NCBI GenBank assembly: GCA_013180625.2
Contig: SNVD02002538.1
Span: 806,001-870,000 of the forward strand
DNA length: 64,000 nt
Reading direction: 5' to 3'
DNA from: Boswellia sacra
Taxonomy: Eukaryota > Streptophyta > Magnoliopsida > Sapindales > Burseraceae
The translations under genes and the position numbers were made by a program. Under the pieces are notes generated by a model. It ran no database searches, was not told the origin of the DNA, and saw only the letters and a list, made by a program, of their open reading frames with translations. This document shows positions 1 to 64,000 of the stretch, piece after piece (the first letter of the stretch is position 1; the number at the start of each line of letters is the position of its first letter).

Positions 1-1850
1 TGCATTTTGTGGTGATGATGAATCTGATGGTTCAAGTGACCAAGGAAACTTCCTTGAGCTTTTACGATTTCTCGCTGAGCATAATGAAGATGTAAAAGCT
101 GTTACTTTGGAGAATGCTCCTGAGAATCTTAAATTGACATCACTTGATATTCAAAAGGATATTGCAAGTGCTATTTCCCTTGAAACTCGTATTGCTATAA
201 TTAGAGATTTGGGTGACTCATTATTTTCCATTATGATTAATAAATCTCGTGATACATCTGTTAAAGAGCAAATGACTGTTGTTTTGCGTTATGTGAACAA
301 AAAAGGTCTTGTTGTAAAACGCTTAATAGGAATTGAACATATTACTAGTACCACAGCTCTCTCACTTAAAGCAACACTTGATAATCTATTTTGTAAGTAT
401 GGATTGAGCATATCTAGGTTGCCAAGGCTATGATGGAGCTAGTAACATGCAAGATGAATTCAATGGGCTTAAAACACTCATTTTGAATGAGAATAATTGT
501 GCTTACTATGTTCATTGTTTTGCACATCAACTCCAATTGGCTCTTGTAGCGGTTGCAAAGAAACATGAAGATGTTAATGATATTTTTAACATAATTGCAA
601 TCATTGTTAATATTGCTGGAGCTTCATCTAAGCGTAGTGATATCCTTCGAGAGAAAAAAGCTCTTAAAGTTAAGATATCAATAATGCTGAACTTTCAAGT
701 GGACAAGGTCTCAATCAAGAGACTAATTTGAAACGTGCTAGTGATACACGTTGGGGATCACATTATGGTACAGTGATAAGTATAAATATCATGTTTTTAT
801 CCATAATTGATGTCCTTAAGATAATTGCACAGGATGGAAGCTCTGAACAAAGATTTCATGCCAAACATATTTCAAAGATGATGCAATCATTTAATTTTGT
901 GTTTACTCTCTTTTTTGATGAAATATATACTTGGCCTTATAAATGAATTGTCTCAAGCTCTTCAAAGAAAAGATCAAGATATTGTGAATGCTATGAAATT
1001 GGTTAGTGTATGTAAACATGGATTGCAAATGATGAGAGAGAAAGGATTGGATACTTTACTAGGTAAAGTATATTCTTTTTGTGTTAAGCATGACATTGAT
1101 GTCACTAACATGGATGATAGGTTTATAATTGAAGGGTGATCTATGCTTAATGCTCTAGAAATCACAAATATGCATCATTATCGGATAGATTTGTTTACAC
1201 TATTTCGGATATGCAACTTCAAGAGCTAAACAATCGCTTCAATGAGGCAAATACTGAGTTGCTTTAGTGTATAGCATGTTTATGTCCATATGACTCGTTT
1301 GGTGCTTTTGACAAACAAAAATTAATGCAACTTGCAGAATTCCATCCTAATGATTTTTCTGAAATGGAGCTCATGGCACTTGATATTCAACTTGATGGTT
1401 ACATTATGGATATACGTTCTAGCATTGAATTTTCAAGATTGAAAGGAATTGAGGATCTTGCAAAGAGAATGGTTGAGTTTAAAAAAGATATTTTGTATCC
1501 ATTAGTTTGGAAGTTAGTGACATTAGCATTAATTCTTCCAATTGCTACAACCAGTGTTGAGAGGGCCTTTTCAGCAATGAATTTTGTCAAGAACCATCTT
1601 TGAAATCGAATAGGAGATCGATGGCTGAATGATAACTTAATTCTATATATAGAGAAGGATGTATTTGATGCTATTGATAATGAAGATATCATTCAACGCT
1701 TTCAAAATATGAAATCACGTCGAGGACAATTGTAAAATTGAAAATGTATGAATGGATATCGCTATTTTTCTTCATTTTTTTATTGTCATTTTAAATTTTA
1801 CTGTTGTTTGGATTTGCCCCTCCTTGGCAGAAATCCTGGCTCCGTTTATG
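1..1850 (+). mobile_element. hAT transposon, 3' part (left copy)
   Basis: The 3' half of a hAT element enters from the left edge of the window. Its terminus (rc CATAAACGGAGCCAG) resembles the 5' terminus of the hAT at 62249 (CAAGGATGGAGGCAG), matching at 10 of 15 positions. It is followed at once by the 8-bp target duplication GACAGAAA (1851-1858), after which a gypsy integrase reading frame resumes. Adding the part of the right-hand copy that lies left of the matching position gives a full length near 3.45 kb. That suits hAT elements encoding a TTF/MYM zinc-finger transposase. Confidence 0.9.
2..1734 (+). pseudogene. hAT transposase (DUF4371 and hAT dimerisation domains), broken
   Basis: This is the middle and C-terminal part of a plant TTF-type zinc-finger hAT transposase. 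The frame is open from base 2 to 433 and then shifts several times, continuing at 447-731, 728-946, 897-1139 and 1325-1603. The DUF4371-like core shows YDGASNM at the first break and CAHQLQLALVAVA after it. The C-terminal hAT dimerisation domain is clear near 1490-1600 (YPLVWKLVTLAL, then SVERAFSAMNFVKNHL). An in-frame TGA follows, after which the tail NRIGDRWLNDNL and a final FQNMKSRRGQL can still be read before a TAA near 1734. Several frameshifts and stops mean it cannot make an active transposase. The same coding sequence appears at 63265-64000. Confidence 0.88.
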
Positions 1851-2092
1851 GACAGAAAGTCCTTTTATTTCATTCTCGCATCAAGTTATTTTCAGGTAAA
1901 TTACGTTCTCGATGGGTTGGACCTTTTGTTATTACTGATGTCTTTTCCTATAGTGCAGTGGAAATCAAGAGCTTAAAAACAGACAAAGTATTCAAGGTGA
2001 ATAGACACAAGTTGAAGCCTTACTATGAAAATTCAGTGATACAGGACATCGAGGAGGTACCACTCTACGAGCCAACTTATCTTGATAGGTGA
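1850..2092 (+). pseudogene. gypsy integrase C-terminus (fragment)
   Basis: Reading from GQKVLLF at 1850, through [17 protein letters not shown] and [14 protein letters not shown], this is the typical C-terminal tail of plant Athila/Tat integrases. It ends at a TGA at 2090-2092. The upstream residues FEVGQK lie at the far end of the window (62231-62248), and the hAT insertion splits the frame exactly between them. The frame upstream of 1850 (from the ATG at 1748) is hAT terminal sequence and not gene. The fragment itself shows no stop or frameshift. Confidence 0.9.
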
Positions 2093-2397
2093 GGGCAGGT
2101 AACGTTAAGCTGAGGATGTTAAACCAAGCACTTATTGGGAGGCAACCCAATGTTTTTGAAAACAATTAAAAAGGAAAAAAAGAAAAAATGTAGTAATGAT
2201 CAATTTTTGTGTCTCGAGGAGATTCCTCTCGTGGGCTCTATGCATCATAATTGATCAGGTTTTATCTCTCTTTGCCATCTGTCTCATTTGCTTTATCGTT
2301 TTTTTTTTTTACTTTTGTTTGCTATTCTATTTTTGTTTCTTTTATGTGTCTTTATTTTATTTTATTTTGTTTAATTTGATTATTCCGTCCTTTGCGC
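2093..2397 (+). other. Athila post-pol untranslated region
   Basis: Non-coding sequence directly after the polyprotein stop. The segment GTTAAACCAAGC...TTGGGAGGCAACCCAATG is characteristic of Athila/Tat elements downstream of pol. A T-rich run follows (2285-2390). No gene is seen. Confidence 0.6.
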
Positions 2398-2412
2398 TCA
2401 TTTGTGCAACAA

Positions 2413-2520
2413 CTTGAGGAAACACCCAAAAGGGAACTGAAGCCATTGCCTGAAGGTTTGAAGCGTGCATATCATGGAGAAGAAAAGACTCAAATGCATT
2501 ATCAGTAATATCTTTCCTTT
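2413..2520 (+). pseudogene. displaced piece of Athila pol upstream of RT
   Basis: The residues ELKPLPEGLKRAY followed by GEEKT, then (after a frameshift) LSVIS, resemble the conserved stretch just before the reverse transcriptase in Athila polyproteins (LKPLP, then LG, then PVIIS). Here it lies downstream of the integrase, out of order. The same region is missing from the right-hand copy between 59960 and 59990. It may be a rearranged piece of the element or a fragment of another one. Confidence 0.4.
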
Positions 2521-2689
2521 TCTCCTCTTTAATAGATATCGATATCTTTCTGTCAAACCTTCGTAAATATTTTCCTTCACTTCTTCAAAATGCCGTGTTC
2601 AAAATTTATAAAGTACGAATGACTAAACTTTGGATGTTAATTCTCCTAAAAATGCCTACAGATATCCAATGACTTATCGAAGCCAAGGG

Positions 2690-3137
2690 AAGATTGTCCG
2701 GTGAGCTTGATTTTAATCTTATAGTATACATGCCTGGTCTAGGAAAGAGCTATTACGCCAAGAGGTGACAAGCAAAGAGGTTACAAGTATGTTATAAATG
2801 TGCTCGATGGAATTGTAACCAGAGTTGTCAGTCATTAGGTTTTGTGTCCAGGAATAGAGAAGATAAACTTTCGTTTAAGAATGGTTTGAGTAATGAGTCT
2901 CTGGATAATATTTTACTAACTCTTGAGTCACATTCTTGTGGACTTGTTCATCGTGAATTGCTTAATATATGAACACAATTTCGTGATGAACTGCAGCGTT
3001 ATAGTTTAGGGAATTTGACTGAAAATGACCCTATTTGCCAGTCTATAAGAAAATTGGATGGGAAGCATATTCCTAACTCATAAAAGGCGTTTCAATCGTT
3101 ACTGGATGTAAAACCAGAGAAAGATGTAAGCCACAAT
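2690..3137 (+). pseudogene. unidentified ORF relic
   Basis: One frame stays readable for about 150 codons with only three stops (TGA, TGA, TAA). It contains CYKCARWNCNQSCQSLGF, then HRELLN, then a region reading YSLGNLTENDPICQSIRKLDG and ending FQSLLDVKPEKD. The four closely spaced cysteines could be a degenerate metal-binding site. I do not recognise the family. It lies between pol and the LOG pseudogene in the 3' region of the gypsy, so it may be an element-encoded ORF or another captured host fragment. Low stop density is the only evidence that it was once coding. Confidence 0.4.
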
Positions 3138-3585
3138 CACAATTACTTGTATATTTGAATGTGTGTTATTATTGTTGAAATTTATTTTTCTTGTTTTGTT
3201 TGATTGATTATTATTGTTGTCTTTGTGTTGTTGTTATTTGTTGATTTTGTTTATTTTGATTTCAAGTTTTCTTTTTGACAAACCACACGGCTACCTATAA
3301 TATAAGCACATGTGGAAGACAAGTGTGGGGGTTTTGTCAACCCCCATCGAAAGCATATCTCAATTTTTCAAATCTTGGAGTGATAAATATGCATCGAGCA
3401 ACCCCCACCGAAATTACGTTCCCATATGTCAAATTTGAGAGCATTACGTATGTATCCATCCATTTTCCATATTTTCAAATGTCATTATTACAACATCTTT
3501 TGACCTTGAAAAACACAATACCTAATGTGCATCATTGTTTTACACATGATTAGGTCACATGTAGAAAACACCAATTCGGTGATTC
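3138..3585 (+). other. non-coding stretch before the LOG pseudogene
   Basis: Contains a T-rich segment (3170-3270) and a GTGTGGGGG tract at 3323 like those at 6030 and 12451. A short ORF at 3275-3553 has no recognisable similarity. No gene is called. Confidence 0.4.
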
Positions 3586-4209
3586 CGAAATATATGCGTA
3601 TTTTATGGATCTCAATTTGGTAAAGATGGAGAGTTTGTAGCAGCAGCTTTTGATCTTGGTAGGGTATTAGCTGAGAGGCATATTTATTTGGTTTATGGAT
3701 GGGGTAGCCTTGGGTTAATGGGGTGTGTGTCAATAGCTGCAAACTTAGCAGCGAGCCAAGTTCTCGGCATTATCTCTAAACCATTAGTTGTACGACATAT
3801 CATAGGCAACACAATAGGAGAAAAGTTATAGATTTCAAGCATGCGTGAGCGTATTGCACATATGCTTTTTAACTCTGATGCATTTATAGCTCTGCCGGGT
3901 GGTTATGGTACATTAGAGGAAATATTTCAAATCACCTCTTAGGCACAGCTAAACATCCATCGAAAACCCATTGGTTTGTTAAATGTCAATAAATTTTTTG
4001 ATGGTCTATTATCTTTTCTTGATCAAGCTGTAGAACAAAACTTCGTCTCACAATCAACGAGGCAAATCCTGGTTACGGCTTCAACTACAGAGAAGTTGAT
4101 TGACAAACTACAAGAATTCGTTCATTCACCTATTCCATCAATAGCTCGGATAAATTGGTTTGTGGAAGGCAGTAAAAGGTATAAACTGGATTTGACGCTC
4201 TACCTGTAA
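3586..4209 (+). pseudogene. LOG: LOG-type cytokinin-activating enzyme, intronless pseudogene
   Basis: One uninterrupted frame of 208 codons reads as a plant LOG protein (cytokinin riboside 5'-monophosphate phosphoribohydrolase, which releases active cytokinin bases in the cytosol). It runs CVFYGSQFGKDGEF, then LAERHIYLVYG, GSLGLMG, the MRERIAHM segment, the family signature PGGYGTLEE, and a C-terminus ending LDLTLYL. No introns interrupt it, although plant LOG genes have several, so it derives from a spliced transcript. The family YGGGS loop reads YGWGS here. Two in-frame TAG codons (3829-3831 and 3940-3942) break it, the second at a Trp usually found just after the signature. The N-terminal start is not evident. 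It lies in the 3' non-coding region of an Athila-like element, in the same orientation. It could have been captured by that element, or inserted later as a processed pseudogene. I see no poly-A tail. Confidence 0.85.
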
Positions 4210-4408
4210 TCTTTATCTACTGGTTTGCTTCACTTTTATTTGCTTTCTTTTAGTTGTGGTTATTTGAGATTTTTCAAGTTATTTCTTTTGACTTTCGCCA
4301 TAGGTAATATTTTCTAATCTTGCCTTTTGGAGTGGTGGATTGGGTATCAAAAGTTCAAGTTCTCTTGAAACGCATTCTGGATCTCTTCGATCCGGAATGG
4401 TTAAATTA

Positions 4409-5010
4409 GGCTTGGAACCGGGGCAGGGCGAGTACGGGGCAGCCGATATCCATCCCCGCCTTGTGGCATTATTTTTCGCCCTGCCCCGTTCAGTTCGGGG
4501 GCAATGGTGCCCCCGAACTGAACTGGGCGGGGCAAAAAAAATTTAGGCGGATCCATACCCACCTAGCCCCGCCCTATCCATTTATAAATTCGTGGAAATT
4601 TTTTTTTTTAAGTAGACCCACCATATTTAAAAACTTTTTTTATATATACATGTAGACAAATTTTAGTGAAGTGGAACCATTCTATTTAAAAACTTTTTTT
4701 TATATACTTTGTCAAATTTCAAGACACCCATATATATATATATATATTAAAAGTTAAAACTTATCAAAATCATCCTTTAAAATTACATATCAGTCCATAT
4801 ATTTTATAATTTTTCATATACGCCTTTTTATAATGCAGGCGGGGCGGGTCAGACGGGTCTAGAAGTCAGACTTAGCCCCAGACTCGCCCCAACCGAGGCA
4901 ACATCCATTGGGATCCAGACCTGCCCCGAACAAGCAATGGGGCAGGTCAAGCCTTGCCCCTTCTTCACGGGTCGCATTGGGGCCCCGAACCCATAGGGTC
5001 AAATGCCCAA
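4409..5010. repeat. GC-rich, inverted-repeat-like insertion
   Basis: Two GC-rich ends (4415-4580 and 4838-4990) rich in GGGGCAGG/CCCCGCCC motifs flank an AT-rich core with a doubled (A/C)TATTTAAAAACTTTTTT segment. An internal palindrome (CAGTTCGGGGGC...GCCCCCGAACTG, 4490-4522) stands out. The ends are partly complementary, like a non-autonomous DNA transposon. A 15-bp near-repeat, CTTGAAACGCATTCT at 4365 and CTTGAAACACATTCT at 5229, brackets the region, but I could not fix the boundaries. Confidence 0.4.
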
Positions 5011-6252
5011 GCCTAGGCTGAATAAGGGGGTTAACTTCTGAACTTTTGAGACCCATCCTGACTAACTTGTTTTTGTTTACTGACTGTTGGATTTTGTTGT
5101 TTTATGAGTAAGTTGAGTTTTATGTAATTTAAAGTTGTTATGTGTTTTTTTTTTGTCTCTATCAGGTCCGATTAAAAAAATTATGGAAAAGAAATAAAGA
5201 ATTTCAAAATATGGTGTTTCTTTAACCCTTGAAACACATTCTAACTATATAAATTTGTAGTTTGTTTATTTACTGTTGTTTGAAGTGTCTTGTATCTTTT
5301 TTGTTAATTTATAATAAAGGTATATAGGCTGAAAACCTTAAGTCTACAGGCTACTGGTCATAAGGATTGTTGAAATATACAATCTTGACTCAGGTCTAAC
5401 AACGCCATGTACATCTTTTCTTGCATTTTGTGGGCTGATGATAAGGCAATCATTGAATTGAGAATAACTTTTGAAAAATAATAAATGATGCATAGATCTG
5501 TGTGCTTGAAATGTTTGTTGGTTTTTGCTTTACTTTTGATTCCTTGCACAACTTTGAGTACTGGGCCATTATCATTGAGTTATTCGTTTACTTAGAGAAG
5601 GTTTATGCAATTTAAGTGTTTCTTTAGATTTCAATGAATTATAGAACTTGTTTGATAGTCACTTGAGGCAAAATCCTAGACTGTGTAATATTAGGGAAAT
5701 GATTTAGGCCATCTTTAAACCGTTTAAGCCTTCATAGCCAACCTTGAATGAAATTGATCCCTAATTACCCATTTGAGCCTCTTTAAGCTATTTTCCTTAT
5801 TAACTCACTAAAAGATTTCCTAACTTTAAACGAATTTTTTCAAACAGTTTATCCTTTACCTATGAGCATGTAGATCATTCACGATCACATTTTGAGTTAT
5901 GCTATGGTTTTGGGAAGTTAAAGGAGGTTGGATGGTATCATAAGCAAAGAAAGTGAGTTCTATTATGTTTGAAAAAAAAAATCTATACTTATCTTCCACG
6001 TGCTTAAACATTGAGGACAATTTGTTGTTTAAGTGTGGGGGAGGGGTAGTTAAAAATAAAAAAAAAAATAAGAGAAAGAGAAGAAGAAGAGATCTATGCC
6101 CTTGAGTGTTTCTAAAAAGAATGAAACAACAAAGTATGAGGGTGTAGTTTCTTTGTTATATTAAAAAAAAGAGATCGAGTGTTCTAAATAAGCTTGGGTG
6201 AGTTACCTGGTGAACTGAAATGAATTTGTGTTATGGGGTTGAGCTCTACATA
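5011..6252 (+). other. Athila 3' region, non-coding
   Basis: No gene seen. The stretch around 6010-6050 (AACATTGAGGACAATTTG, then AAGTGTGGGGGAGGGG) is typical of the Athila 3' region, a polypurine-like tract inside the element. The TSD of the nested CACTA element ends here (ATA, 6250-6252). Confidence 0.5.
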
Positions 6253-6272
6253 TACTACAACAGAAAGGACAA

Positions 6273-6525
6273 TTTACGGCGGGCCAAAACCGTTGCAAAA
6301 AGGTTTTTACGGTGGTTCTACGGCGGTTTCTATCCGACGTAAAAGCAACCGCAGTAAAAGCTTTTACGGTGATTTTTATCCACCATAAATAACTTTATAC
6401 GGCGGTTTAAATGTTCATCGTAAAAAGGTTCGACGAAATTTTGGGACACCCTTTTACGGCGGTTTATGAACCGCTACAAATATTTGCGGCAGTTTCAAAA
6501 CCGTCGTAAAAAGCCTTTTTAATAT
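6273..6525. repeat. CACTA subterminal repeat array
   Basis: About ten short copies of ACGGCGGTTT-like motifs alternate in direct and inverted orientation (for example at 6276, 6307, 6321, 6366, 6399, 6451 and 6484). This matches the subterminal repetitive region of CACTA elements, where the element-encoded DNA-binding protein docks. Confidence 0.8.
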
Positions 6526-6959
6526 TTTTTAACATATTTTTTTCATTTAATCCCCGCTTGCTGTTTTACAAATTGAGTTCACATGTCTACCCTGTCTGCT
6601 GTTTACAAATTGAGTTCACATGTCTAAAAAATATTATTGTATAACATTTCAGTAATTATATGCATTCAATATAAATATAAAAACAAACGAAATATGAAAG
6701 CATCTCATTTAAATGGTTTTAAACGTATTGTAACAAACAAATCAAATTTAACTCTATCATAATTCACATTGTTTAACATCTAATAAGCAAATAATTAAAC
6801 AATATCTCTAATAGTTCATCAACCTCCATATAAGTGCAAACCACAAAACTTGAACTTACCTGCAAGAATAAATTTGTAACTTAGATAATATTCATTTAAT
6901 AAGATTGCTTAATTTGGAACAAATAAGATTATTTATACGTACTCATGTTCCTGATCTGA

Positions 6960-8846
6960 TATGTCACGAGTGACATCATTTGTTCCATGACTATCAGGTT
7001 GAAAATGACTTTGGTGTCCACTTGAAGCATCTAGAACCTATTTAGAACAAAGAATATCAAACGCAAGTTAAAGTATAAATCATCTGAAACTTTTAAACTT
7101 TATGAAAATATGTGAATACCGGTCTATTTGCACGCCGTTGTGCAAATTCTGGAAACGTCTCTTGTAGAAAGGAAAGGACTTCAGCATGCGTCATCTTCAA
7201 GTTATTGTATTCTTCCTTCAAGTAATTGTGTTGTTCATTCAAGTTGCTGTGTGCTTGTTGTAAGGCACTAAACTGTTCCCTCAATTGATTATCAGATGAG
7301 CTGCATCATCCGTGAATGCCAATTGGAGATGGACCATGACCGTATGTCCGAGCATAGCCACGATGATCAGGTCCCATTACGTTGCCAAATACCTCTTCTC
7401 TCACTTGTTGAGTTTGTTGCTCTTGTGTAAATTGAGACAAACTATCATTAAATTGACTCTACAACATTATCAAAACAAATAACAAGTTAAAGAAAGATAA
7501 AACAATAAGCAAAATAATTTCATACATAATAGATGAATAGATAGGTTCAAAAAATTAAAGAACTTACAATTATTTCTGCACTTTCATCATCACCTATTTC
7601 CCCAGTACTTTTTGTTCTGGTTTTGATGAAGACACTAATACGATCAGTTTGTTCGCCATTTCTTATCATCTAACCAAAAAAAGAAAACAACTAATATAAA
7701 GGTTTATTATCATTTACAAGTACTTAAAAAGTGAAGTTACTTACCAAAAACATCATAAAAAATAGACACATCCCATATCTTAGCAATACAATGGTAACAT
7801 AATAATAGACACATCCTATTTCTTAGCAAGACAATGGTAACATAATAGAAAGATCAACTCCCACAAAATTGAAATAACAACTGCTAATAAGATACAACAT
7901 CTTCATAACTAATAAATAAATAGCATGCAAAACTTACCTCTTCTCATTTTTGGGCAAACGATGTACGACCTGTTCGATGAAGTGCAACCTGTTGTGTACG
8001 GTTTACCTTATTCTTTTCTGCAACTTCCTATAATACAAACAATTTTAAAGGTTTACGTATTATAGAATTTATAACTACATACAAATAACTATTTGGGTAT
8101 AGATATCATGTATTGAGTTAGACATATACTTTGGCTTCTTCCGTCCCCTAATAAGCTACAAGAATAGGCCACTGGTCGGGGTTAACTCTAGAAGGAGTGA
8201 AAGCTAACCGAGCCTCATCTGTATCAAATTTCTTGTAATATTCTCTCTTGACACGAGCTTTCCAATCCCTCCAAAGATTCTCAACTGCTTTTAGACAATG
8301 AAGTCTATACTCATTAAGAACATCTGCATTATCCTACAATAACAAATTATAATATATTAACATAGATTCAAAAAAATATGTTCTAACCCAAGAATTTCTT
8401 ATAAATACTCACCTTTAATTCTTTCCAAATATCATCTAAAAGATGTTGTGGCATGCTTTGCCATCGTGGACAAGTCAGTAGAGCCATGTTGCCATTCTTT
8501 GCTATGATTCTGAGTTGGGAGGTTAATTTATCTTTGTTTGCATTTATTAGTTGCCACTGAGAGTTAAACTCTATATGCAACCTTTGCCCTGTTCCCCACT
8601 CACGAATAGTGCGAGCTGATCCATGACCTTTTACAACCTTTGGTGTACCACCATCATCTTAAAAACAAATAAACAAATGAGAAAACAACTTTAAATGTTA
8701 ATTAGTAAAGGAATCTTATTTATGTACATACCTTGCTCTCCGTTATTTGTCTGAGTTTGAGAAGATGTCGATTGTCATCGAGTTTCTGCTTCCTTTTGTA
8801 TTATACTCTCCATTTAGATGTCTTGATGTCTCTTTGGTGGCATAGT
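6960..8846 (-). pseudogene. En/Spm-type plant transposase (Transposase_24), multi-exon, decayed
   Basis: Read on the minus strand from about 8846 (MPPKRHQDI, then a stop), exons can be followed. At 8670-8383: an HIEFNSQW segment and then LTCPRWQSMPQHLLDDIWKEL. At 8335-8150: LKAVENLWRDWKARVKREYY, then DEARLAFTPSRVNPDQWPILVAY and a stop. At 8029-7937: EVAEKNKVNRTQQ, then GRTSFAQK. At 7670-7570: MIRNGEQTDRISVF. At 7460-7093: a Gln-rich and then coiled-coil region, EQFSALQQAHSNLNEQHNYL. The WRDWKAR and KN(K)xNR blocks are hallmarks of the plant Ptta/En/Spm family (Pfam Transposase_24). Stops at the N-terminus, after LVAY, after AQK and at GIHG show that it is no longer functional. Confidence 0.8.
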
Positions 8847-8919
8847 TACCTACAAAAAAACAAAACAGAAAACCATGTTATCATCATTTGTTATATGTCA
8901 TAATATTAACTTAGAATTT

Positions 8920-9480
8920 TTTGGGTAGTGGGCTAGTGTCTTTTCTTTTTTATAATAACACACTAGTGGGTTTAGTGGACTAATGTGTTAAGTTTTTAAA
9001 TGGGCTAGTTATTTTTTTGGTTTAGTGGGCTAATGCACTTTCCTTGTTGGCTTAGTGGCCTACTGTAGGTATTTTTGTTGGATTAGTTGTCTATTTATTT
9101 ATGCTTTTTGGGGTTAGTGGGGTGGTGTCTTTTATTTTATATTAACTCTAGGATTTTGTGGGTTGCCCATTTTGCTTTTGTTGTGGCATATGTATCGGCT
9201 GCTAAAGTTTTTTAGTTTGCTGGGATGGTGTTATTCTTTTTTTTATTTAATGGGCTGTTGTCAATAACTTGTTGGGTTTAATGGACTGATGTCTTCTATT
9301 GAGGTGGTAAGCTCTTTGTTCATTTAGTGGGTTGGGATCTTCCTTTTTTAACTTGTTTAGTAGGCTACCCAATTTGGTTATATGGTAGGGTCTCTCTTTG
9401 TTCATGTGGTGGGCTGGGGCCTAATTTTTTTAATTTGTGTAGTGGCTGCCCACATTTTCCAAACCATGACACTATAGTAT
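8920..9480. repeat. diverged TTTAGTGGGCTA-type repeats
   Basis: A short motif resembling TTTAGTGGGCTAATGT recurs at irregular spacing through this stretch (for example near 8931, 8966, 8996, 9023, 9050, 9107, 9240, 9320 and 9400), with T-rich linkers. It looks like an old degenerate minisatellite inside the CACTA element, between its transposase gene and the captured ADH3 piece. No coding potential is seen. Confidence 0.5.
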
Positions 9481-9789
9481 TCTTCAGCTAATTTATCATC
9501 GGTACTGATGTCTTTAACAAAGTCAACTTCCCAAATCATGAATGTGTGATCAATGTCAAACAAAATCATAGAACACCTTCAGTACTTAAACTAAGAGAGA
9601 GCGAGCCACTTCTCAAAAAGTCCAGCTAAACATACATATCAAAACTAGCAATTCAAAAAACCAGTCGAATATTTTATGGCACAAGTATCAATGTGTAATG
9701 TGTGCTACAATGCATGCAACAATTAGTTAAAAATATCTATTATTTTTAAACACTGTCGCTTAAGTAAAGAACGTGCCTTAAACCTCCTA

Positions 9790-10935
<1,146 letters not shown>

Positions 10936-11015
10936 ATACGAGTAGGAACACCACAGCCAATGAGGCACACTTTATCTAAAGGAGCTTATGTATCTAAAGG
11001 AGCTTATGGATCAAC
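10936..11015 (-). pseudogene. ADH3: captured ADH3/GSNOR exon, preceding one
   Basis: The minus strand reads APLDKVCLIGCGVPT, the segment that directly precedes the NAD-binding exon in class III alcohol dehydrogenases (LDKVCLLGCGVPTG). The intron between this exon and the one at 9850-9932 is about 1 kb and was captured with them. Two changes break it. A 17-bp tandem duplication (10975-11009, around CTAAAGGAGCTTATG) repeats APLD and introduces stops. The splice donor after the final Thr reads TCGTATC where an AGGTATC-like donor is expected. The 5' boundary of the exon is uncertain. Confidence 0.75.
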
Positions 11016-11274
11016 CTTATTTTAAGTATCAATATATTTCTAACAGAAATCTACAAGCTGATTTTATTCAATATAGACAATCAGTAGCCATGCGGAATAC
11101 AACAGCTACCACAAATACACCTTAATATTGTTAATTCTTCAGTACAAACAAAACTGGAAGCATAAGGTGACCATCAGTAATGAGCCTATCAGACTTTGTA
11201 ATTACTGACTAAGTGCAGAAACGAGCATGCATCTTTACTATCAGACTACTACACCATCAATAATTCATTGATCA

Positions 11275-11340
11275 ACAACCACTCCACACCCAATCGCACA
11301 ACCACTCCATACCCAATCGAACAACCACTCCACACAATCT
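11275..11340. repeat. short tandem repeat, about 23 bp x 3
   Basis: The unit CAACCACTCCACACCCAATCG is repeated about three times with small changes. Confidence 0.7.
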
Positions 11341-11489
11341 AAAAAATCATGCACCAATTAACAAAAATTAAACAAAAACCACCCAATGACACACTACACA
11401 ACACACCAAAAATCTCACACCCAATCAAAAAAACCAAAAACATAACTTATCAAATCAAATCCAAACACAACACAGCTTACCTATCAACA

Positions 11490-11862
11490 AGGCTTTGTCA
11501 CGAAGAAGTGATGGCAGATACAACGACAGCTGCAGGAGCAATGTAGGTAACAGTAGTGGCGGGTGGTCGATTTTAGGGTAGAGAGAGACGCGGAGGGAGA
11601 CCGAGAGGAAAAAAGGCTCCGTCACGCAGAAGCGACGATGGATACGATGGCAGCTGTAGGAGCAACAGAGGTAACAGCAGCGACGGGTGGTCGATTTTGC
11701 GGTAGAGAGAGACGCAGAGGGAGACCAAGAGGAAAAAGGGCTCTGTCACGCAGAAGCGACGGCAGATACGATGGTAGCTGCAGGAGCAATGGAGGTAACA
11801 GCAGCGGCGGGTGGTCGATTTTGCGGTAGAGAAAGACGCAGAGGGAGACCGAGAGGAAATCA
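11490..11862. repeat. 124-bp tandem repeat, three copies
   Basis: The landmark GTCACG(A/C)AGAAG recurs at 11498, 11622 and 11746, exactly 124 bp apart. The third copy runs to about 11862. The unit is GC-richer than its surroundings, with GCAGGAGCAA and GAGACCGAGAGGAAA segments. Several frames stay open across all copies on both strands because the repeat lacks stops, which explains the ORFs here. It sits near the right end of the CACTA element, next to the only right-hand subterminal motif. Confidence 0.9.
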
Positions 11863-11973
11863 AAGTGAAATTCGCAATTAGGGTTACATGCGATTTGGGA
11901 ATTTTTAAAACCTTTCTACGGCGGTTTTTCCCGAATACCTGTGCAGTATATACCCTGCTTTCTTGTAGCGATA

Positions 11974-12450
11974 GTCTTGAATGATTTATGTGTTTGTGGG
12001 TGATTTGAGCCAAATTATTATCCTTTATCATATCTTCACCCAAGCCAACGTTACAAGCTTAATACACCCCTACTTGATCCTTAGTGTTTTGCTTGTCTAC
12101 ATTAGTAGAGAGTGACTTGAAACGCAGGCCTATGGAGTTCATTTATGCGCACATCTTCACTATTAAATATGATTCATTTTTATGTATTAACTCATCCGGA
12201 TTACAAGTGATTAGGTGAGAACGGCTTTACACACACACACTTGAGGAATTGAAGTGGAGCGAAACTAATCTATGAGATGAAATTCATGATCAAGTGCATA
12301 ATTTTGAAGTTTTCCTTGGGTTATAATTAAGTGCAATCTTTGAGGCCTATTTGCAACTTGAAGCATTTGTGTGTTTTTTTTTGTGATTCTGTTTAGATTT
12401 AGTTTTGTTTTCATATCGTTTTAGTTGCTCGAGAATTAGCAAAGTCTAAG
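11974..12450 (+). other. Athila 3' region continued
   Basis: Non-coding gypsy sequence resumes after the CACTA element's right TSD and runs to the polypurine tract. No gene seen. Confidence 0.55.
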
Positions 12451-12462
12451 TGTGGGGGAATT
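12451..12462 (+). other. polypurine tract of the left Athila copy
   Basis: TGTGGGGGAATT lies directly upstream of the 3' LTR, the expected site of plus-strand DNA priming. Confidence 0.7.
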
Positions 12463-13894
12463 TAATAGGTGTCTATTTATATATTATTTTCACATCAATT
12501 CGTCTATATTTCTTTGCTATATTCCTTGGTATTTCTATGTTTTTGTATAGTTTTGATGTTTGTAGGAGTTATGGAGGAGCTTGGACCAAATTGGAGTAAA
12601 ACCCTTCATTTTTACCTTTGCTAGTCAACCAACTTCTCGGATTTAATTGTATTGATGTACAATAAATCAGATGATGTGCTATATACCGTTGGAAAGCTCT
12701 AGAAGTCTAGTTTCTAGATAAATTTACGGTTCATGAATCCATATAGTGTACCAGAAGTTATGATCAAAATGGTGTGAGTAGTGCAGAATTATAATTTTAC
12801 AAATCATTGTAGCATGTTATTATTCGGGGCACTGTAGCAGGGTTACTGGAACATAGTATATAAACATATTTTAGGGTTTTATTTTGACAATAAGAAGTAG
12901 GGAGAACGAGCTAGAGGCTGCCTCTCTTGATTTCTCTCATCTTTTGGAGTTCTTGAAGGAGAAAGAAGGGCTTGGAAAGAGGAGGAACTACAATCCTAAG
13001 GAGATTCATCTACGAAGGAGATTTTCAAGGGATTTGCTAAGTGTTTCCTTTCCTTTTCATTTTCTGGAATGTCTCTATGTTGCGTTGTATTTATGTTGTG
13101 TTTGAACATGTGTAACTAAATCTGATTTGGTTGATGATTTCAAAGCCCTAGATATGGTTTTTGTGAGTTGATTGTTCAAGAAATTGTTATCCGATTCGCT
13201 AATTGAAATTGCTTATGTTTTCCCATATTCAGTGCTTATGATTGCTTCCTGATTTTATTTGGGGTGACCAACTAAATAGAATCTGGTTATTGTCTATTGC
13301 TAAACTAGAAATCTTGATCCGTAATTGTCTTGAATTTTTAATCATTAGTAGCAAAATTATGATCGGAGATTGCAATTGGAAAATAAAACCTAAGTTAAAT
13401 AATCCGAGCTTGTGCGGTTATCGCTTAGATCAACCTATCTTTCTTATCGTAATGCTTCCGTTGAATTAAATTTAGAGAGTTTCTTCTAGGTTGTTTAATG
13501 GATAGAGATTAAATAAAGAGCTTGTTTTATTTAACGGCAAAGTGAGGAAAGATTGGGGTAATAGAGCTCGCTATTATCTACGGTTAATAATTTCAATGTT
13601 GTAATTGGATGACAATTCTATAGTTGATTCACAAATTCATATCTTGTGGTAGAGAATGATCTCTTAACCAAGTTTCTCTCGTTGATTATTTCTCACTCTA
13701 TTTAACTTTGTGTTGTGTTATTCTTCATTTGCATTCATATTTCATTTAGTTAATCTATGAACAAAACCCCCCATTTATTGTATTGGTGTTGTCTAATAAC
13801 AAATTTAATAAGAAACAATCCTCACGGGAACGATATCTTACTCATCACTTTATTATTTATGCGACTAGTATATTTGCTAGTTTTGAACATGCGA
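12463..13894 (+). repeat. 3' LTR of the left Athila copy
   Basis: 1432 bp, aligned end to end with the 1434-bp LTR at 56211-57644 (the first 335 bp show about 24 differences by eye). Terminal TG and CA have decayed to TA and GA. A small ORF (12884-13105) with a counterpart in the other LTR is the LTR transcript region and not a gene. A 5-bp AAAAT follows, compared with GAAAT before the other LTR. Confidence 0.88.
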
Positions 13895-35197: not shown

Positions 35198-35199
35198 AT

Positions 35200-41011: not shown

Positions 41012-41013
41012 AG

Positions 41014-41025: not shown

Positions 41026-41066
41026 AAGGTTGCTCATTTTTTTTAAATCTTAACCGATTTTGAGCT

Positions 41067-45610: not shown

Positions 45611-45643
<33 letters not shown>

Positions 45644-49226: not shown

Positions 49227-49488
49227 TGATGCAGGGCTGCTTCTTAGGGTCCCATTTGTCTATTCATAAGTTGTTTCTTTTTATTGGTTTGTTAGTATAA
49301 TATAAGACATAAGAAGTGCACCGTTTTGGGGCCATATAGATGTATTAAAGATATTGCTCTGTCATCTAGAGGAGGTTACTTTTCTGGAAAAAGAAACTTT
49401 GCTGAAATATATTAAGAAAGCTCCAGGAGTACTCGGTACTGCCTTTAGCAAGACTTTCTTCTGTTTTGTTTGCTGGACTACTACGTCA
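49227..49488 (+). repeat. 5' LTR of the intronic gypsy
   Basis: Starts TGATGCAGG, ends CTACTACGTCA. Very similar to 54068-54330. Confidence 0.93.
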
Positions 49489-49491
49489 AAC

Positions 49492-49505
49492 TAGTATCAG
49501 AGCCC
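49492..49505 (+). other. primer-binding site
   Basis: TAGTATCAGAGCCC, a one-base variant of the Met-tRNA type site TGGTATCAGAGCC. Confidence 0.8.
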
Positions 49506-49522
49506 AGTTTTCTGGGTTAGTG

Positions 49523-54070: not shown

Positions 54071-54330
54071 TCCAGGCTTGCTTGTTAGGGTCACATTTGT
54101 CTATTCATAAGTTGTTTCTTTTTATTGGTTTGTTAGTATAATATAAGACATAAGAAGTGCACCGTTTTGGGGGCCATATAGATGTATTAAAGATATTGCT
54201 CTGTTATCCAGAGGAGGTTACTTTTCTGGAAAAAGAAACTTTGCTGAAATATATTAAGAAAGCTGCAGGAGTACTTGGTACTGCCTTTAGCAAGACTTTC
54301 TTCTGTTTTGTTTGCTGGACTACTACGTAA
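54068..54330 (+). repeat. 3' LTR of the intronic gypsy
   Basis: Starts TGATCCAGG, ends CTACTACGTAA, followed by the TSD TAAAT. Confidence 0.93.
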
Positions 54331-56210: not shown

Positions 56211-57644
56211 TGATAGGTGTCTATTTATATATTATTTTCATATCAATTCGTCTATATTTCTTTGCTATATTCCTTATTATTTTTATGTTTTTGTGTGGTT
56301 TTAATGTTTGTATGAGTTTTGCAGGAGCTTACACCACATTGGAGTAAAACCCTTCATTTTCACCACTGCCAGTCAACCAATTTCTCGGATTTAATTGTAT
56401 TGATGTACAATAAACCAGATAATGTGTTATATACCGTTGGAAAGCTCTAGAAGTCTAGTTTCTAGATAAATTTACGGTTCATGAATCCATATAATGTACC
56501 AAAAGTTATGATCAAAATGGTGTGAGTAGTGCAGAACTGTAATTTTACAAATAATTGTAGCATGTTATTATTCCAGGCATTGTAGAAGGTTACTATAGCA
56601 GAGTATATAAACATATTTTAGGGCTTTATTTTGATAAGAAAAAGTGGGGAGAACAAGTTAAAGGTTGCCTCTCTTGATTTCTCTCATCTCTTAGAATTCT
56701 TGAAGGAGAACGAAGGGCTTAGAAAGAGGAGGAACTACAATCCTGAGGAGATTTACCTAAGGAGGAGATTTTCAAGGGATTTTCTAAGTGTTTCCTTTCC
56801 TTTTCATTTTCTGGAATGTCTCTATGTTGTATTGTATTTATGTTTTGTTTGAACATGTGTAACTAAATCTGATTTGGTTGAGGGTGATTTCAAAGTCCTA
56901 GATATGGTTTTTGTGAGTTGATTGCTCAAGAAATTATTATCCGATTCTCTAATCGAAATTGCTTGTGTTTTCCCATATTCAATGCTTATGATTGCTTGCT
57001 AATTTTATTTGGGGTGGCCAACTAAATAGAACCTAGTTGTTGTCTATTGTTAAACTAGAAATCTTGATCCATAATTGTCTTGAATTTCTAATTGTTAGTA
57101 GCAAAATTGTGATCAGAGATTGCAGTTGGGAAATATAACATAAGTTAAATAATCTCAACTTGTGTGGTTATTGTTTAGATCAACATATCTTTCTTATCGT
57201 AATGCTTCCATTGAATTATATTTAGAAAGCTTTTTCTAGGTTGTTTAATGGATAGAGATTAAATAAAGAGCTTGTTTTATTTAACAACAAAGTAAGAAAA
57301 GATTGGGGTAATAGAGCTTGTTGTTATCTACGGTTGATAATTTCAATGTTGTAATTGGATGACAATTCTATAGTTGACTCGCAAATTCATACCTTGTGGC
57401 AGAGAATGATCCCTTAACCAAGTTTCTCTCGTTGATTATTTCTCACTCCATTTAACTTTGTGTTGTGTTATTCTTTATTTGCATTCATATTTCATGTAGT
57501 TAATCAATCAATAAAACCCCCTATTTATTCTATTGTTGTTGTGTAATAACAAATTTAATAAGAAACAATTCTCATGGGAACGATATTTTATTCATCACTT
57601 CATTACTTGTGCGACTAGTATACTTGTTAGTTTTGAACGTATCA
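56211..57644 (+). repeat. 5' LTR of the right Athila copy
   Basis: 1434 bp, starts TGATAGGTGTC and ends GAACGTATCA. Aligns over its whole length with 12463-13894. Preceded by GAAAT. The small ORF at 56631-56852 matches the one in the other LTR. Confidence 0.92.
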
Positions 57645-57650
57645 AGTTTT

Positions 57651-57670
57651 TGGCGCCGTTGCTAGGGATT
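57651..57670 (+). other. primer-binding site (Asp-tRNA type)
   Basis: TGGCGCCGTTGCTAGGGATT, six bases after the LTR, matches the 3' end of plant tRNA-Asp with small changes. This PBS is used by Athila/Tat gypsy elements. Confidence 0.88.
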
Positions 57671-57748
57671 GATTTTCTAATCGATTTGTTTTTTTGTTCT
57701 TACTATTGATTATTGATTTTTATTTTTGTTTGTTTGTGTTTAGGCTTT

Positions 57749-58800
57749 TATGTCCAACGGAGAAGCAGACCAATGACTTAAGTGAATTAAGGAGTTTCTC
57801 GAGTCCTCGAATTTATGACTAAGTCAGTCAATTTCAACTCCACCTCTGGAATTTGACCTTGCACGACATACTTCCCTTCCATCTTCCTGTATTTTAATCA
57901 AATCTAAATCGGAAGTAATGGCGATACAAAATAATCAGACTCTTAATGAGTTAGCGGCTCCAATTATTGATAAACAACTGCTATGCATAAATCCCAACCT
58001 TGAGGTAGATTTTAAACTTAAATCTAAACTAATTCATCTTTTGCCTACATTTCATGTTTTGTAGGAGAGGATCTTAACAAACACCTCAAAGAATTTCATG
58101 TGGTATGCTCATGTATGAAGGCAACCTGTGATTCTGAGCAGTAAATAAAAACGAGAGTCTTCCCATTCTCTTAATAGATTCAACAAAAGAGTGGTTATCC
58201 TATCTACCACCGGGTACTATCACCACATGGAATGAGATGAGTAGACTCTTTTTGGAGAAATACTTTCCCACCTTAAAAGCTACAAATATTAGAAAAGACA
58301 TTTGTGGCATTCGACAACACAATGGAGAATCACTTTATGAATATTGGGAGAGATTTAAAAGGTTATGTGGTAGCTATCCACGCCACAAAATTAGTGATCA
58401 ACTCCTTATTTAATATTTCTATGAGGGACTCATGCCAATGGATAGGAGTAAGATTGATGCTGCTACTGGAGGAGCACTAGTTAATAAAACACCGAAAGCT
58501 GCAGGATTTTTTATTGGCGACATGGAAGCAAACTCCTAACAATTCAGTAGCCGATTTGAGCCACCACTACCAAAGAAAGTAAATGAGGTAAGTACGCCGA
58601 ACATTGAACAATAACTTTCTCAGCTTACCTCTCTTATGAAACAAATGGCTATAGGAAATATACAATAATCTTATGCATGTGGGATATGTTCTACCACGAA
58701 GCATCTAACATACATGTGTCCAACCTTGCAAAAAGAAGAGACAGAACAAGCTAATGCCATAGGTGAATTTCCAGGACAACCTAGTTAAAGGTATGACCTT
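57749..58800 (+). pseudogene. Athila gag
   Basis: An ATG at 57749 is soon followed by stops. The gag core can be read from about 58190: EWLSYLPPGTITTWNEMSR, LFLEKYFPTLKATNIRKDI, GESLYEYWERFKRLC, QLLI, a stop, YFYEGLMPMDRSKIDAATGG. A degenerate zinc-binding motif CGICSTTKHLTYMC follows near 58680. The wording YFYEGL(L/M)PMDRS and AA(T/S)GGAL is typical of Athila/Tat gag. Multiple stops are present. Confidence 0.85.
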
Positions 58801-59254
58801 TTCTTTAATATTTACAATGGTTGATTGAGAGATCACCCCAATTTTAGATGTGGGAATCGTCAACCAATTTCTTCAAACGCCATACCAAACCGACCACCAA
58901 GTTTCAATCAACCAAGAGTGCAAACAACCATTTCAAACTCCACCACCACCAGCACCACAACCAGCTCCACAAAACTCAGGTACGTCTCTCTAGGACATTG
59001 TTAAAGCACTTACCACTAACACATGCAATTTCAATAGGAAACTAGGGCAAGTGTCCAAAACCTGAAAAATCAAATGGGCCAATTGGCTATTAACATGAGC
59101 AAATTCGAGGGTCAAGGCTCAGGAAAATTACCTTCTCAAACAGTGATCAACTGCAAGAGAGAATGCTAGTGCAATAACTTTGAGAAGTGGAAAACAATTA
59201 GAGGTCCTACCAAAAAAGTCATAATCTAATGAAGGGGATGACACCACTTCCACC

Positions 59255-59920
59255 ATGAACAAAACATCATCTTTTAAGGTAAATCTTAAAACTCATATTC
59301 CTTCTTATGTTATTCCTCTACCTTTTCCTAGCAGATCTGCAAAATCAAAGAATGAGGAACAAGAGCAGAAAATCTTAGAGACTTTTCGCAAGATCAAGGC
59401 AAATATACCACTTTTGGATGCTATCAAGCAAGTACCTCGTTATGAAAAATTTCACAAGGAGTTGTGCACCAAAAGGAGAAAGTTAAAAGGAAATGAGAAA
59501 GTAAGTGTGGGGGAAAATGTTTCAGCTGTACTACAAAGAAAAATTTCTTCAAAGTGTAAAGATTCAGGTACATTTACCATTCCATGCACTATTGGTAATA
59601 CCAAGTTTGAAAAAGCTATATTAGATTTAGGAGCATCTATTAATGTCATACCATATTCTATTTATGTTTCTTTGAATCTTGGACCCCTTGCAGAAACTGG
59701 TTTTATCATTCAACTTGCTGAACGTTCTAATGCATATCCTAAGGGAGTTGTGGAAGATGTTCTTGTGCAGGTGAATCAGTTGGTTTTCCCAGCTGATTTC
59801 TATGCTTTTGAAATAGAGGATGAGACATCTCCCAATCTAACACCAATTCTTTTAGGGAGACCATTCTTGAAAATTGCCCGAACCAAGATCGATGTTCATG
59901 ATGGCACTCTCACCGTGTAG
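59255..59920 (+). pseudogene. Athila protease region
   Basis: A 221-codon open frame with a retropepsin-like site at about residue 128 (KAILDLGASINVIPYSIY), in which DLGAS is the Athila-type active site. The upstream part reads IPLLDAIKQVPRYEKFHKELC, a conserved Athila segment. It ends with ILLGRPFLKIARTKIDVHDG and a TAG at a position usually Trp or Gln, after which FDGEVIRFNIFEVM can still be read. Confidence 0.88.
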
Positions 59921-59959
59921 TTTGATGGCGAGGTAATTCGTTTCAATATTTTTGAGGTA

Positions 59960-61130
59960 ATGAGGTACCTTAATGTTACAGTGGTTAAAAATAATAATGA
60001 TGAGCTAATTCCCACTCGTATCCAAACCAGGTGGCGAGTTTGCATTGATTATCGGAAGCTCAATTCAACAACTCGCAAGGATCAATTTCCCTTGCCATTC
60101 ATTGATCAAATGCTTGAGAGATTAGTAGGTCATTCTTACTATTATTTTCTTGATGGTTACTCAGGATGTAATCAGATTGTCATTGCCCCTGAGGACCAAG
60201 AGAAAACTAACTACATCCACATACCCATTTGGTACATTTGCCTATTGACGCATGCCATTCGGTCTTTGCAATGCCCCTGCCACTTTCCAAAGGTGTATTT
60301 TCTTCAATTATGTCGAGAATATCATTAAGGTATTTATGGATGACTTTAGTGTTTTTGTTTATTCTTTTAATAAATGCCTTGACAACCTTACACTTATACT
60401 TCAAAGATATATAGAAACTAACCTTGTTCTCAATTGGGAACAATGTTATTTTATGATAGATCAAGGTATAGTTTGGGGACATGTTATTTCTGCTAAGGGT
60501 ATAGAAGTTGATAAATCTAATATAGACCTTATATGTTCCTTGCCACCCCCTACAAGTGCGCGGGATATTCGTTCTTTTCTTGGTCATGCAGTTTTCTATC
60601 ATAGGTTTATAAAAGAATTTTCGAAGATAGCATTGCCCTTATGCAGATTGCTACAAAATGATGTGACCTTTGATTTGATGAGAAATGCAATAAGGCATTT
60701 GAAAAACTGAAAGAACTCTTGTCTTCGGCTCCAGTGATCCAATCACCAAATTGGGATCATCTATTCAAGATCATATGCGATGTAAGTGACTATGCTGTGG
60801 GATTCGTCTTGGGTCTACGAATTGGCAAAATTCCATATGCCATTTACTATGCATCTTGGACTTTAAATGATGTTCAGCTTAACTATTCCACCACTAAGAA
60901 AGAACTGTTAGCGGTTATTTTTGCTTTGGAAAAGTTTCGTTCTTATTTGATTGGCACTAAAGTAAATGTTTATTTTGATCATGCAGCCTTGAGGTACTTG
61001 CTCACAAAGAAAGATGTTAAACTAATGCTTATCAGGTGGATACTCCTCTTACAAGAATTTAACTTAGAGATCAAAGATAAGAGTGGAAGTGAAAACTTAG
61101 TTGCAGACCATCTTAATCGCCTTATCCATG
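59960..61130 (+). pseudogene. Athila reverse transcriptase and RNase H
   Basis: The start of RT is missing. The sequence goes from FEVMRYLN directly to VVKNNNDELIPTR, then WRVCIDYRKLNSTTRKDQFPLP and YYYFLDGYSGCNQI. After a frame change near 60230 come MPFGLCNAPATFQRC and the catalytic IKVFMDDFSVF. RNase H (60719 on) has [32 protein letters not shown] and [11 protein letters not shown]. The frame breaks again near 60710. Loss of the pre-RT segment (about 170 codons by comparison with what I know of the family) marks this copy as defective. Confidence 0.88.
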
Positions 61131-62248
61131 ATGAGGATGCACTACCATTACAAGAAAGTTTTTTGGATGAACAATTACTATCTCTAATTGTAGTAGCCCC
61201 TTGGCATGCAGATATTGTCAACTACTTAGTTACCAAGAAGCTACCAGATGACTTGACTCGAGCTCAAAGAGACAAGATCAAAAAAATTGCCAAGCACTAC
61301 ATATGGGATGATCCATACATATGGAAGCATTGTTCTAACCAAGTGATAAAAAGTTGCGTTTCTGAATCTGAATTTAATTCAATTTTAACCTTATGTTATT
61401 CTTATGCATGTGGAGGTCACATTGGACCAAAAAGAACAGCCCTTAAAGTTTTTGATTGTGGATTCTACTAGCCATCATTATTCAAAGATGCATATCTCTT
61501 TTGCAAAGCTAGTGACCGTTGTCAAAGGACAGGTAATTTAAGTGCCAAAAAATCAAATGCCACAAACCTCTATACTTATTGTTGAAATTTTTGATGTGTG
61601 GGGTATTGATTTCATGGGTCCTTTTCTTTCATCTTGGGTAATGTTTATATTATACTTGCTGTGGATTATGTTTCTAAATGGGTGAAAGCAAAAGCTACAA
61701 GAACTAATGATTCTAAAGTTGTTGTAGATTTTGTGAAATATAACATTTTTGCAAAATTTGGAATACCAAAAGCCATAATTAGTGATAGAGGGACACAGTT
61801 CTGCAACATATCATTTGAAGCCTTGCTCAAGAAATACAATATCACTCACAGGGTGTCTACCGCATATCATCCACAAACTAGTGGTCAAGTTAAAGTTTCA
61901 AATCAAGAAATCAAGTCCATCCTCGAGAAGACAATGAATCCGAACAGAAAAGATTGGACCCTATGGGCATACCAGATTGCTTACAAGACACCTATTGGTA
62001 TGTCTCTATATAGGTTAGTCTATGGTAAGCCATGCCACCTTCCAGTAGAGCTCGAACACAAAGCATGGTGGGTAGTAAAGCTTTGTAAAATGGAGATGGA
62101 TGCTGCTGGTGAACAAAGGAAGCTTCAACTGCTAGAATGGGAAAAACTTAGAAATGATGCCTATGAGAATTCAAAAATATACAAGGAGAGAACTAAGGCA
62201 TTTCATGATAAGATGATCTCCCAGAAGAATTTTGAAGTAGGACAGAAA
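61130..62248 (+). pseudogene. Athila integrase, cut by hAT
   Basis: A zinc finger [17 protein letters not shown] (stop), then CKASDRCQRTG. The integrase core reads [11 protein letters not shown] with AVDY (first Asp), [11 protein letters not shown] (second Asp) and [20 protein letters not shown] (Glu). [16 protein letters not shown] follows, after which the frame passes into hAT sequence at 62249. The continuation is the kind of sequence found at 1850-2092. Breaks at 61471 and near 61620 are independent of the hAT. Confidence 0.9.
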
Positions 62249-62284
62249 CAAGGATGGAGGCAGAATTACCCCTCCTGGATTTGA

Positions 62285-63264
62285 AATTTTTTTTAAAAAG
62301 ATGTATTATCTATTTTGCCCCTTCTATAGTCCAAAATTACAAATTTATATTATAGTTGACCCATTATTTTTTTATTGGTTTCTTCCCTCTTAAGTCTTAC
62401 CCGTGCACTTTACCAAATCCAAAAAACCACTTTATTCTTTTGTGGTCCCATAACTCCCATTTCTTCTTCTTCTTCTTCGTCACTCCATTGGCAACAATTC
62501 ATCAAATCAATACCCATTTATCTTGTGGTGGTCCATCTATTTACATAAAAAGAATTGGAAGTTAGTGTATATTGAGGTAAAACTCTTCTTCTCTTGTCCT
62601 TTAGTTATTACTTTGCACTTTTTCAGTTTCTCTATTTGTTTTTACTCTTCAAGCAATGTGCTGCAATTTCTTTTTCCTTAAATTCGCAAGGGTAAGAGTT
62701 GGCCATGAATCATGATTGTAGGACTTTATTTTTAGATTGCAATTTTTTATATAAATATTTTAATTCTATAAAATATATTAAAAATTATATAGTTAAGTTG
62801 TGTTATGATCAAATAGAAACCAAAAACCTCTAATTTAAACAAATGTTAATTAAATTTAATTATTGTGAGATTGTGGATATTTATAATAATAAAACAATTA
62901 AACAAAACAGAAAAGAAATCTCTCTTTGAAAATTTATATAGACCAAAAGGTTTTATGGCGGTGAATAGTTGATTTTTGTGTTGTCCAACATTTGATTTTG
63001 ATAGACTTTTTGGTCAATTTTTTTAATAATTATAATTCTTAATTTTTTATCATATTTCTTTGAATTCTATATATAAAAATAATTGTTTTCTAATCGTACC
63101 ATTTTTTTAACTTAAAATTTCAAAATCTATTTACTTATTATTTGTACTTTTAAAGTTGTCTATTATTAATATTGAAATAATTATTATTATTCTTATTCTT
63201 ATTATTTGGTTCTTTAGCACTTTCGTTCACACAAGTAATGACAAATTTTTTGTTTTGAAACAAT
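62285..63264 (+). other. hAT 5' non-coding region
   Basis: AT-rich, with a TTCTTC run at 62462-62478. No gene seen. Probably 5' leader or intron of the transposase. Confidence 0.5.
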
Positions 63265-64000
63265 ATGGAGAAATATTTAAAAAAAAAGGCAGCACTCCCA
63301 CCACATCAAGAGAGACATAGTGGTGGTTCTAGTAAAAATATAGAAGTTGATTTGAGAGATCTTCCAATGGATCTTGGACTACGACCTCGAATTTTAGATT
63401 ATGATCCTAATATTAGAGATCACGTCCGAAGAGTATACTTACAAAAAAAACCTTGCCAACCTAGAGGCCATAGTTTTCCTTCTAAAAAATATGGACAAAT
63501 CTCACGGCGATTTGTTACTTCTTGGTTACATGGTTGGAATATAACATAGCAAAAGATGCTGCATTTTGTCTTTATTGCTATCTTTTTAAGCCTGAAATTG
63601 GAGATCAAGGAGGTGGTGATTATCTTGTTGGTCAAGGGTTTTCAAATTGGAAGAAGAAAGAAAAAATTTAAAATCCATGAAAAAGGTGTTAATAGTGCTC
63701 ATAATCATGCTCGAATAATGTGTGAATCACTAATGAAGCAAAGTCAACACCTTGAAACTTGCTTCACCGGATATTCTGATCAAGCTAAAATTGAGTATCG
63801 AACTCGATTGACTTTGACGGTTGATTGTGTTCGTTTTCTTTTAAAATAAGGGCTTGCATTTCGTGGTAATGATGAATCTGACGGTTCAAGTGACCAAGGA
63901 AACTTCCTTGAGCTTTTACGATTTCTCGCTGAGCATAATGAAGATGTTAAAGCTATTACTTTGGAGAATGCTCTTGAGAACCTTAAATTGACATCACTTG
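63265..64000 (+). pseudogene. hAT transposase N-terminal part (TTF zinc finger), broken
   Basis: Begins MEKYLKKKAALPPHQE, then DLPMDLGLRPRILDYDPNIR and RRVYLQKKPCQPRGHSFP, the TTF-type zinc-finger region of plant MYM/TTF hAT transposases. A frame change near 63525 leads to WLEYNIAKDAAFCLYCYLF in another frame, and a second near 63665 to KFKIHEKGVNSAHNHARIM. A TAA at 63847-63849 stands where LLKQGLAF would be expected. It then runs on in frame with the part seen at base 2 of the window. Confidence 0.9.

Follow-up and report, generated by a model that had tools for sequence, protein, structure and literature searches.

Identical hAT-in-gypsy junctions at the two ends of a 64-kb stretch of Boswellia sacra DNA suggest descent from one nested insertion

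Each end of the window, by which we mean the whole 64,000-bp stretch of Boswellia sacra DNA that was analysed, holds one border of a hAT transposon lying within an Athila-like gypsy retrotransposon, and both of these hAT-in-gypsy junctions were very probably inherited from a single nested insertion. This reading is well supported by the base, the codons, the strand and the 8-bp target duplication, all of which are identical at both borders, and by 95.2% identity where the two hAT copies overlap. The first-pass annotation had regarded one nested insertion with two descendants as proved; the same observations support it, but "proved" is too strong a word, because the outer hAT junctions lie beyond the window and the sole hAT sequence present in both copies, and hence comparable, is just 146 bp long. 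The event is of a known kind, a nested insertion passed on to two copies, and belongs to ordinary plant genome history. In the mechanism that we propose, a single hAT insertion would have taken place in one Athila-like gypsy, at the codons for the C-terminal part of its integrase, duplicating GACAGAAA and interrupting the polyprotein frame. The composite of gypsy and hAT would afterwards have been copied as a unit, so that the window would span from the middle of one composite copy to the middle of the next. The composite copies lie 63,854 bp apart on the same strand. No description of a hAT-in-Athila composite was found in the open-access literature searched. The features of the hAT pieces and of their borders are as follows.

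1..1850, plus strand: left hAT copy from its C-terminal coding part to its 3' terminus, beginning before the window (Dimer_Tnp_hAT; 3' terminus at 1850)
1851..1858, plus strand: GACAGAAA, right-hand target duplication copy bordering the left hAT (read from the junction)
62241..62248, plus strand: GACAGAAA, left-hand target duplication copy bordering the right hAT (read from the junction)
62249..64000, plus strand: right hAT copy from its 5' terminus through its N-terminal coding part, running off the window (terminus after the target duplication; DUF4371)
63855..64000, equivalent to 1-146, plus strand: stretch common to both hAT copies (139 of 146 bases identical)

The right hAT had been described as beginning directly after GACAGAAA within the gypsy codons for FEVGQK, and this was borne out to the base: the codons (TTTGAAGTAGGACAGAAA) occupy positions 62231-62248, the octamer occupies 62241-62248, and the hAT terminus CAAGGATGGAGG starts at 62249. 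The left hAT, which was said to end directly before the same octamer, does so as well. Its terminus (...GCTCCGTTTATG) closes at 1850 and is followed by GACAGAAAGTCCTTTTATTT, after which the gypsy frame is resumed by the codons GACAGAAA GTC CTT TTA TTT, read as GQKVLLF. The 8-bp target site duplication of a hAT was found in this way with one copy of GACAGAAA from each of the two elements, the other borders of both lying outside the window. The bare presence of GACAGAAA means little, because the octamer occurs six times in the 64-kb window (four times on the plus and twice on the minus strand). The non-random part is that two copies stand exactly at both hAT/gypsy borders and in the same codons.

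Domains of hAT transposases were detected in both pieces. The left one matched Dimer_Tnp_hAT at 1268-1600 (E 2.2e-5, above the Pfam cut-off) and the right one matched DUF4371 at 63550-63846 (E 1.2e-6; its 29 bits fall short of the Pfam cut-off of 32.1), whereas five other hAT pieces scanned against Pfam gave no match. The full hAT, of the DUF4371/dimerisation-domain type, measures about 3.46 kb by coordinate arithmetic. Its putative terminal inverted repeat is imperfect, with 11 of 17 bases matching between the right 5' end and the left 3' end, both of which start with CA (binomial p ~0.002 for an assumed match chance of 0.28); the two arms compared come from two different hAT copies. The 146-bp overlap contains seven differences (4.8%, 95% CI 1.9-9.6%), six of which are transitions.

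That two independent hATs would choose the same base of the same gypsy had been called improbable, and arithmetic agrees: for an element of ~12 kb, two strands and uniform targeting, the odds of a second hAT arriving on the same base and strand are ~1 in 24,000. This figure, together with the shared orientation and the shared octamer copy, weighs against the alternative that two closely related hATs inserted independently, through target preference, at the same base in two copies of the gypsy family. hAT elements have weak target preferences, which lend this alternative some support, and over an overlap of only 146 bp a high family-wide similarity is conceivable. The hAT target consensus is nTnnnnAn, however, and GACAGAAA departs from it at position 2. 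We consider independent insertion very unlikely, and the single nested insertion is the reading followed below.

In the protein relatives of the frames at the two junctions, the site reads FEVGQKVLLF. All 38 relatives of the left junction frame (116 aa) were listed, as were 120 of the 7934 relatives of the right junction frame (224 aa). Altogether, 133 of the 158 listed relatives (34/38 and 99/120) satisfied a loose motif test for a continuous frame; the other 25 failed it, some of them being truncated or frameshifted in the short stretches inspected. When four exact hAT junction peptides were sought in the 158 listed relatives none was found, and on realignment none of these relatives entered the hAT-coded residues save for a chance run of seven in P0022, whose own sequence at that run is gypsy. 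Placed side by side, the window flanks (...NFEVGQK and the resumed frame) match uninterrupted plant proteins, for example P0001 and P0003. In viral_contigs, the exact 20-base right junction had 0 matches and the hAT dimerisation piece had no confirmed relative.

The sequences on the gypsy side of these junctions comprise the following features.

56211..62248, plus strand: right gypsy (Athila-like), with 5' LTR, gag, RT, RNase H and integrase up to the hAT (Retrotrans_gag, RVT_1, RT_RNaseH, rve; LTR)
56211..57644, plus strand: 5' LTR of the right gypsy, TGATAGG...TATCA (repeat comparison; ends judged by eye)
1859..13888, plus strand: left gypsy, running from the integrase C-terminus through a long 3' region that received later inserts to the 3' LTR (frame to 2092; relatives)
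12463..13888, plus strand: 3' LTR of the left gypsy (homology to the right 5' LTR; ends by eye)

The organisation is that of a Ty3/gypsy element, with an LTR pair across both copies, a primer-binding site, a polypurine tract and the order gag, RT, RH, rve. The primer-binding-site-like TGGCGCCGTTGC, recognised by eye at 57651-57662 just past the right 5' LTR, is presumably a tRNA-Asp site, and the polypurine tract AAGTGTGGGGGAATT was seen, also by eye, at 12448-12462 ahead of the left 3' LTR. The two gypsy halves overlap each other in the LTR alone. The open frame of the left half stops at 2092, and its gypsy part aligns with all 38 of the listed relatives. Searched against PDB, the integrase frame had 95 matches to E 0.1, foamy-virus and Ty3 integrases leading among the 60 listed, and these confirm that it is an integrase but resolve nothing finer. 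The 231-aa frame at 59225-59917, in the place expected for the protease, had no Pfam match, and ARAGORN and Rfam gave no match over the window.

The gypsy likely belongs to the Athila lineage, an assignment made from its overall organisation and not from placement in a tree. In the pieces scanned, which represent part of the frames, no RNase H model other than RT_RNaseH and RT_RNaseH_2 was reported. An extra RNase H (aRH) marks Tat, and its lack is expected of Athila. The window gypsy resembles the Athila elements among the non-chromovirus Ty3/gypsy elements described in PMC6317226 in being long, in having a long stretch between pol and the 3' LTR, and in its RT_RNaseH-type RNase H and rve integrase with no extra domain in the pieces scanned. 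It differs from them in that the Athila ORF-1 model (pfam03078) found no match in those pieces, so that the name given in the first-pass annotation fits the organisation of the element but not this feature, which is not obligatory and is reported in only 16% of Athila elements in the part of PMC6317226 consulted.

Three accounts of how the junction came to be present twice share the single origin, wholly or partly: a genomic duplication, a joint retrotransposition and an effect of assembly or haplotypes. The first, a duplication of ~64 kb that would be segmental or tandem and could have arisen, for example, by unequal recombination between repeats, is the one we prefer; it is slightly favoured and we would give it an even chance. 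Its main rival is that transcription and retrotransposition acted on the composite as a whole, by means of enzymes provided in trans, and gave rise to a small non-autonomous family; the two members seen here would then share a strand, at a distance of 42 kb, by chance. We regard this as quite possible, if on the doubtful side. The two accounts differ in the divergence expected: a genomic duplication should leave an older divergence in the LTRs, whereas after joint retrotransposition the LTR and hAT divergences should be about equal. The left 3' LTR and the right 5' LTR differed at 126 of 1425 aligned bases (8.8%, 95% CI 7.4-10.4%), which, compared with 7/146 in the hAT, gave a Fisher one-sided p of 0.057 and a two-sided p of 0.117, a difference that is not significant. 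The greater divergence of the LTRs leans to genomic duplication, because the LTRs would date an older gypsy insertion and the hAT a later duplication, and to the same extent it speaks against joint retrotransposition; the overlap of the confidence intervals of the two divergences works in favour of the latter.

Other observations bear on the retrotransposition of the composite as well. Copy-and-paste is the normal way in which gypsy elements multiply, the hAT is oriented as the gypsy, and the composite without its CACTA-like insert would measure ~16 kb by arithmetic, which is within the range of 4.4 to 24.1 kbp given in PMC6317226, a range that may not be for gypsy elements alone. Against it, no further composite was found in the 158 listed relatives (120 of 7934 for the right junction), from a database that need not hold this plant, and a survey of nested pairs deemed joint retrotransposition unlikely (PMC6911290), the elements there being LTR-in-LTR. 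Only tentatively, then, might the gypsy with the hAT inside be seen as a replicating non-autonomous composite that carried a whole DNA transposon via RNA and spread in this plant genome.

In a genomic duplicate, the 5 bp that follow the left 3' LTR should also be identical to those that precede the right 5' LTR. The flanks, compared by eye, were GAAAT on the right and AAAAT on the left at the equal-length position, alike at 4 of 5 bases. The left LTR end is degraded, and its true position is uncertain because the right LTR agrees with it at only two of the final six bases. A clean match of the flanks would have been informative, since 5-bp target duplications are found in 93.4% of elements and 1008 of the 1024 possible 5-mers occur, according to the part of PMC6317226 consulted. 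Judged from repeat pairs, at least three further LTR elements occupy parts of the ~42 kb that separate the two visible LTRs.

According to the third account, both ends of the window represent one locus, either as two alleles or as a tandem repeat that was collapsed or expanded, placed consecutively in the contig. The 146-bp overlap between the ends of a 64,000-bp window is compatible with this, as it is with any such window having a 63,854-bp period, and a 52-base mostly-C run at 45590-45641 shows that the assembly contains hard-to-sequence stretches. On the other hand, two reads of one locus would be expected to differ by less than 4.8%, and differences of which six in seven are transitions resemble real ageing more than read errors. 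An effect of this kind is improbable, and genomic duplication remains our preferred account.

Several other repeats were noted within the window. An LTR element at 39786-45602 has direct repeats (39786-40984 and 44408-45602) that are 98.8% identical and young-looking, with a six-copy 65-bp tandem repeat in each; from its frames it appears copia-like by eye. The run of 52 mostly-C bases at 45590-45641 lies at the end of its 3' repeat and is possibly a sequencing or assembly artefact. Two more LTR elements are located at 27765-36247 and 49223-54328, with repeat pairs of 95.9% and 95.8% identity, respectively. A TGTCGAG-type minisatellite array extends over 26182-26860 with nested periods of 21, 75, 96 and 171 bp.

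The long 3' region of the left gypsy contains a gene fragment and a later insert, the first of which is listed here.

3583..4206, plus strand: LOG-like pseudogene (cytokinin riboside monophosphate phosphoribohydrolase, a cytokinin-activating enzyme), between pol and the 3' LTR (PF18306, PF03641)

The pseudogene matched PF03641 with E 5.9e-12 and PF18306 with E 0.00021, the latter below the cut-off. Its coding match, on the same strand as pol, has no visible intron and contains two in-frame TAG codons; host LOG genes contain introns. Among the 120 listed of the 6967 relatives found, 31 were from Reevesia pubescens and span 16 different chromosome-like locus-tag prefixes, a set that looks like a mobile multi-copy gene; Diplodiscus, Populus and Paulownia were also among the relatives listed. 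The relative P0161 had no confirmed relative in viral_contigs. The possibility that the pseudogene was an unreported captured gene was rejected, as gypsy elements that bear a YgdH/LOG domain as an extra part are already in print for two species of Citrus and, under a looser filter, for Populus trichocarpa (PMC9289625, which cites Steinbauerova et al. 2011). The window copy is like those in being a LOG-type domain carried as an extra part of a gypsy and unlike them in being decayed and found in one element. No mention of LOG was found in the part of PMC7264820 consulted.

The CACTA-like insert of the left gypsy, at about 6254-11970, was delimited by eye from its ends CTACAACAGAAAGG and CTTTCTTGTAG. 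It has minus-strand transposase-like frames and an alcohol-dehydrogenase-like fragment (9787-9993, minus strand), both recognised by eye, and a 124-bp GC-rich tandem repeat in three copies at 11489-11859. Four of its frames scanned against Pfam gave no match. A search of 1-14500 for canonical CACTA...TAGTG termini did not confirm the insert: two starts resembling CACTA were returned but no TAGTG end, and none of the 30 best inverted repeats listed pairs its ends.

Two published systems pose comparable questions. A study of 12 plant genomes covered 26 sets of nested LTR-element pairs that resemble each other, and the insertion points of similar copies were always at least 50 bp apart. The authors considered joint retrotransposition unlikely, although they allowed that chimeras may move, with the site altered later by an unknown process (PMC6911290, as far as the part consulted goes). 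The present case is like these in the recurrence of similar nested pairs and in the question of duplication versus joint retrotransposition, and unlike them in having identical insertion points and a DNA transposon as the inner element. The modelling of segmental duplications in REANNOTATE (PMC2672092, part consulted) likewise uses nesting order, LTR divergence and explicit models to set duplication against independent transposition; it works, however, with whole genomes and both LTRs of each element, whereas here one LTR per copy is in view.

If the copies share their flanks, the finding would simply be that 64 kb of a repeat-rich plant region were duplicated. Its interest is modest unless a genome-wide count reveals a mobile composite. 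Counting all copies with the junction would show whether a gypsy broken by a DNA transposon still copies as a unit, to which the answer for LTR-in-LTR nests in 12 plant genomes was probably no (PMC6911290, part consulted). An identical nested junction, being very unlikely to arise twice, is a good genealogical marker that ties two repeats to one event without recourse to flanking genes.
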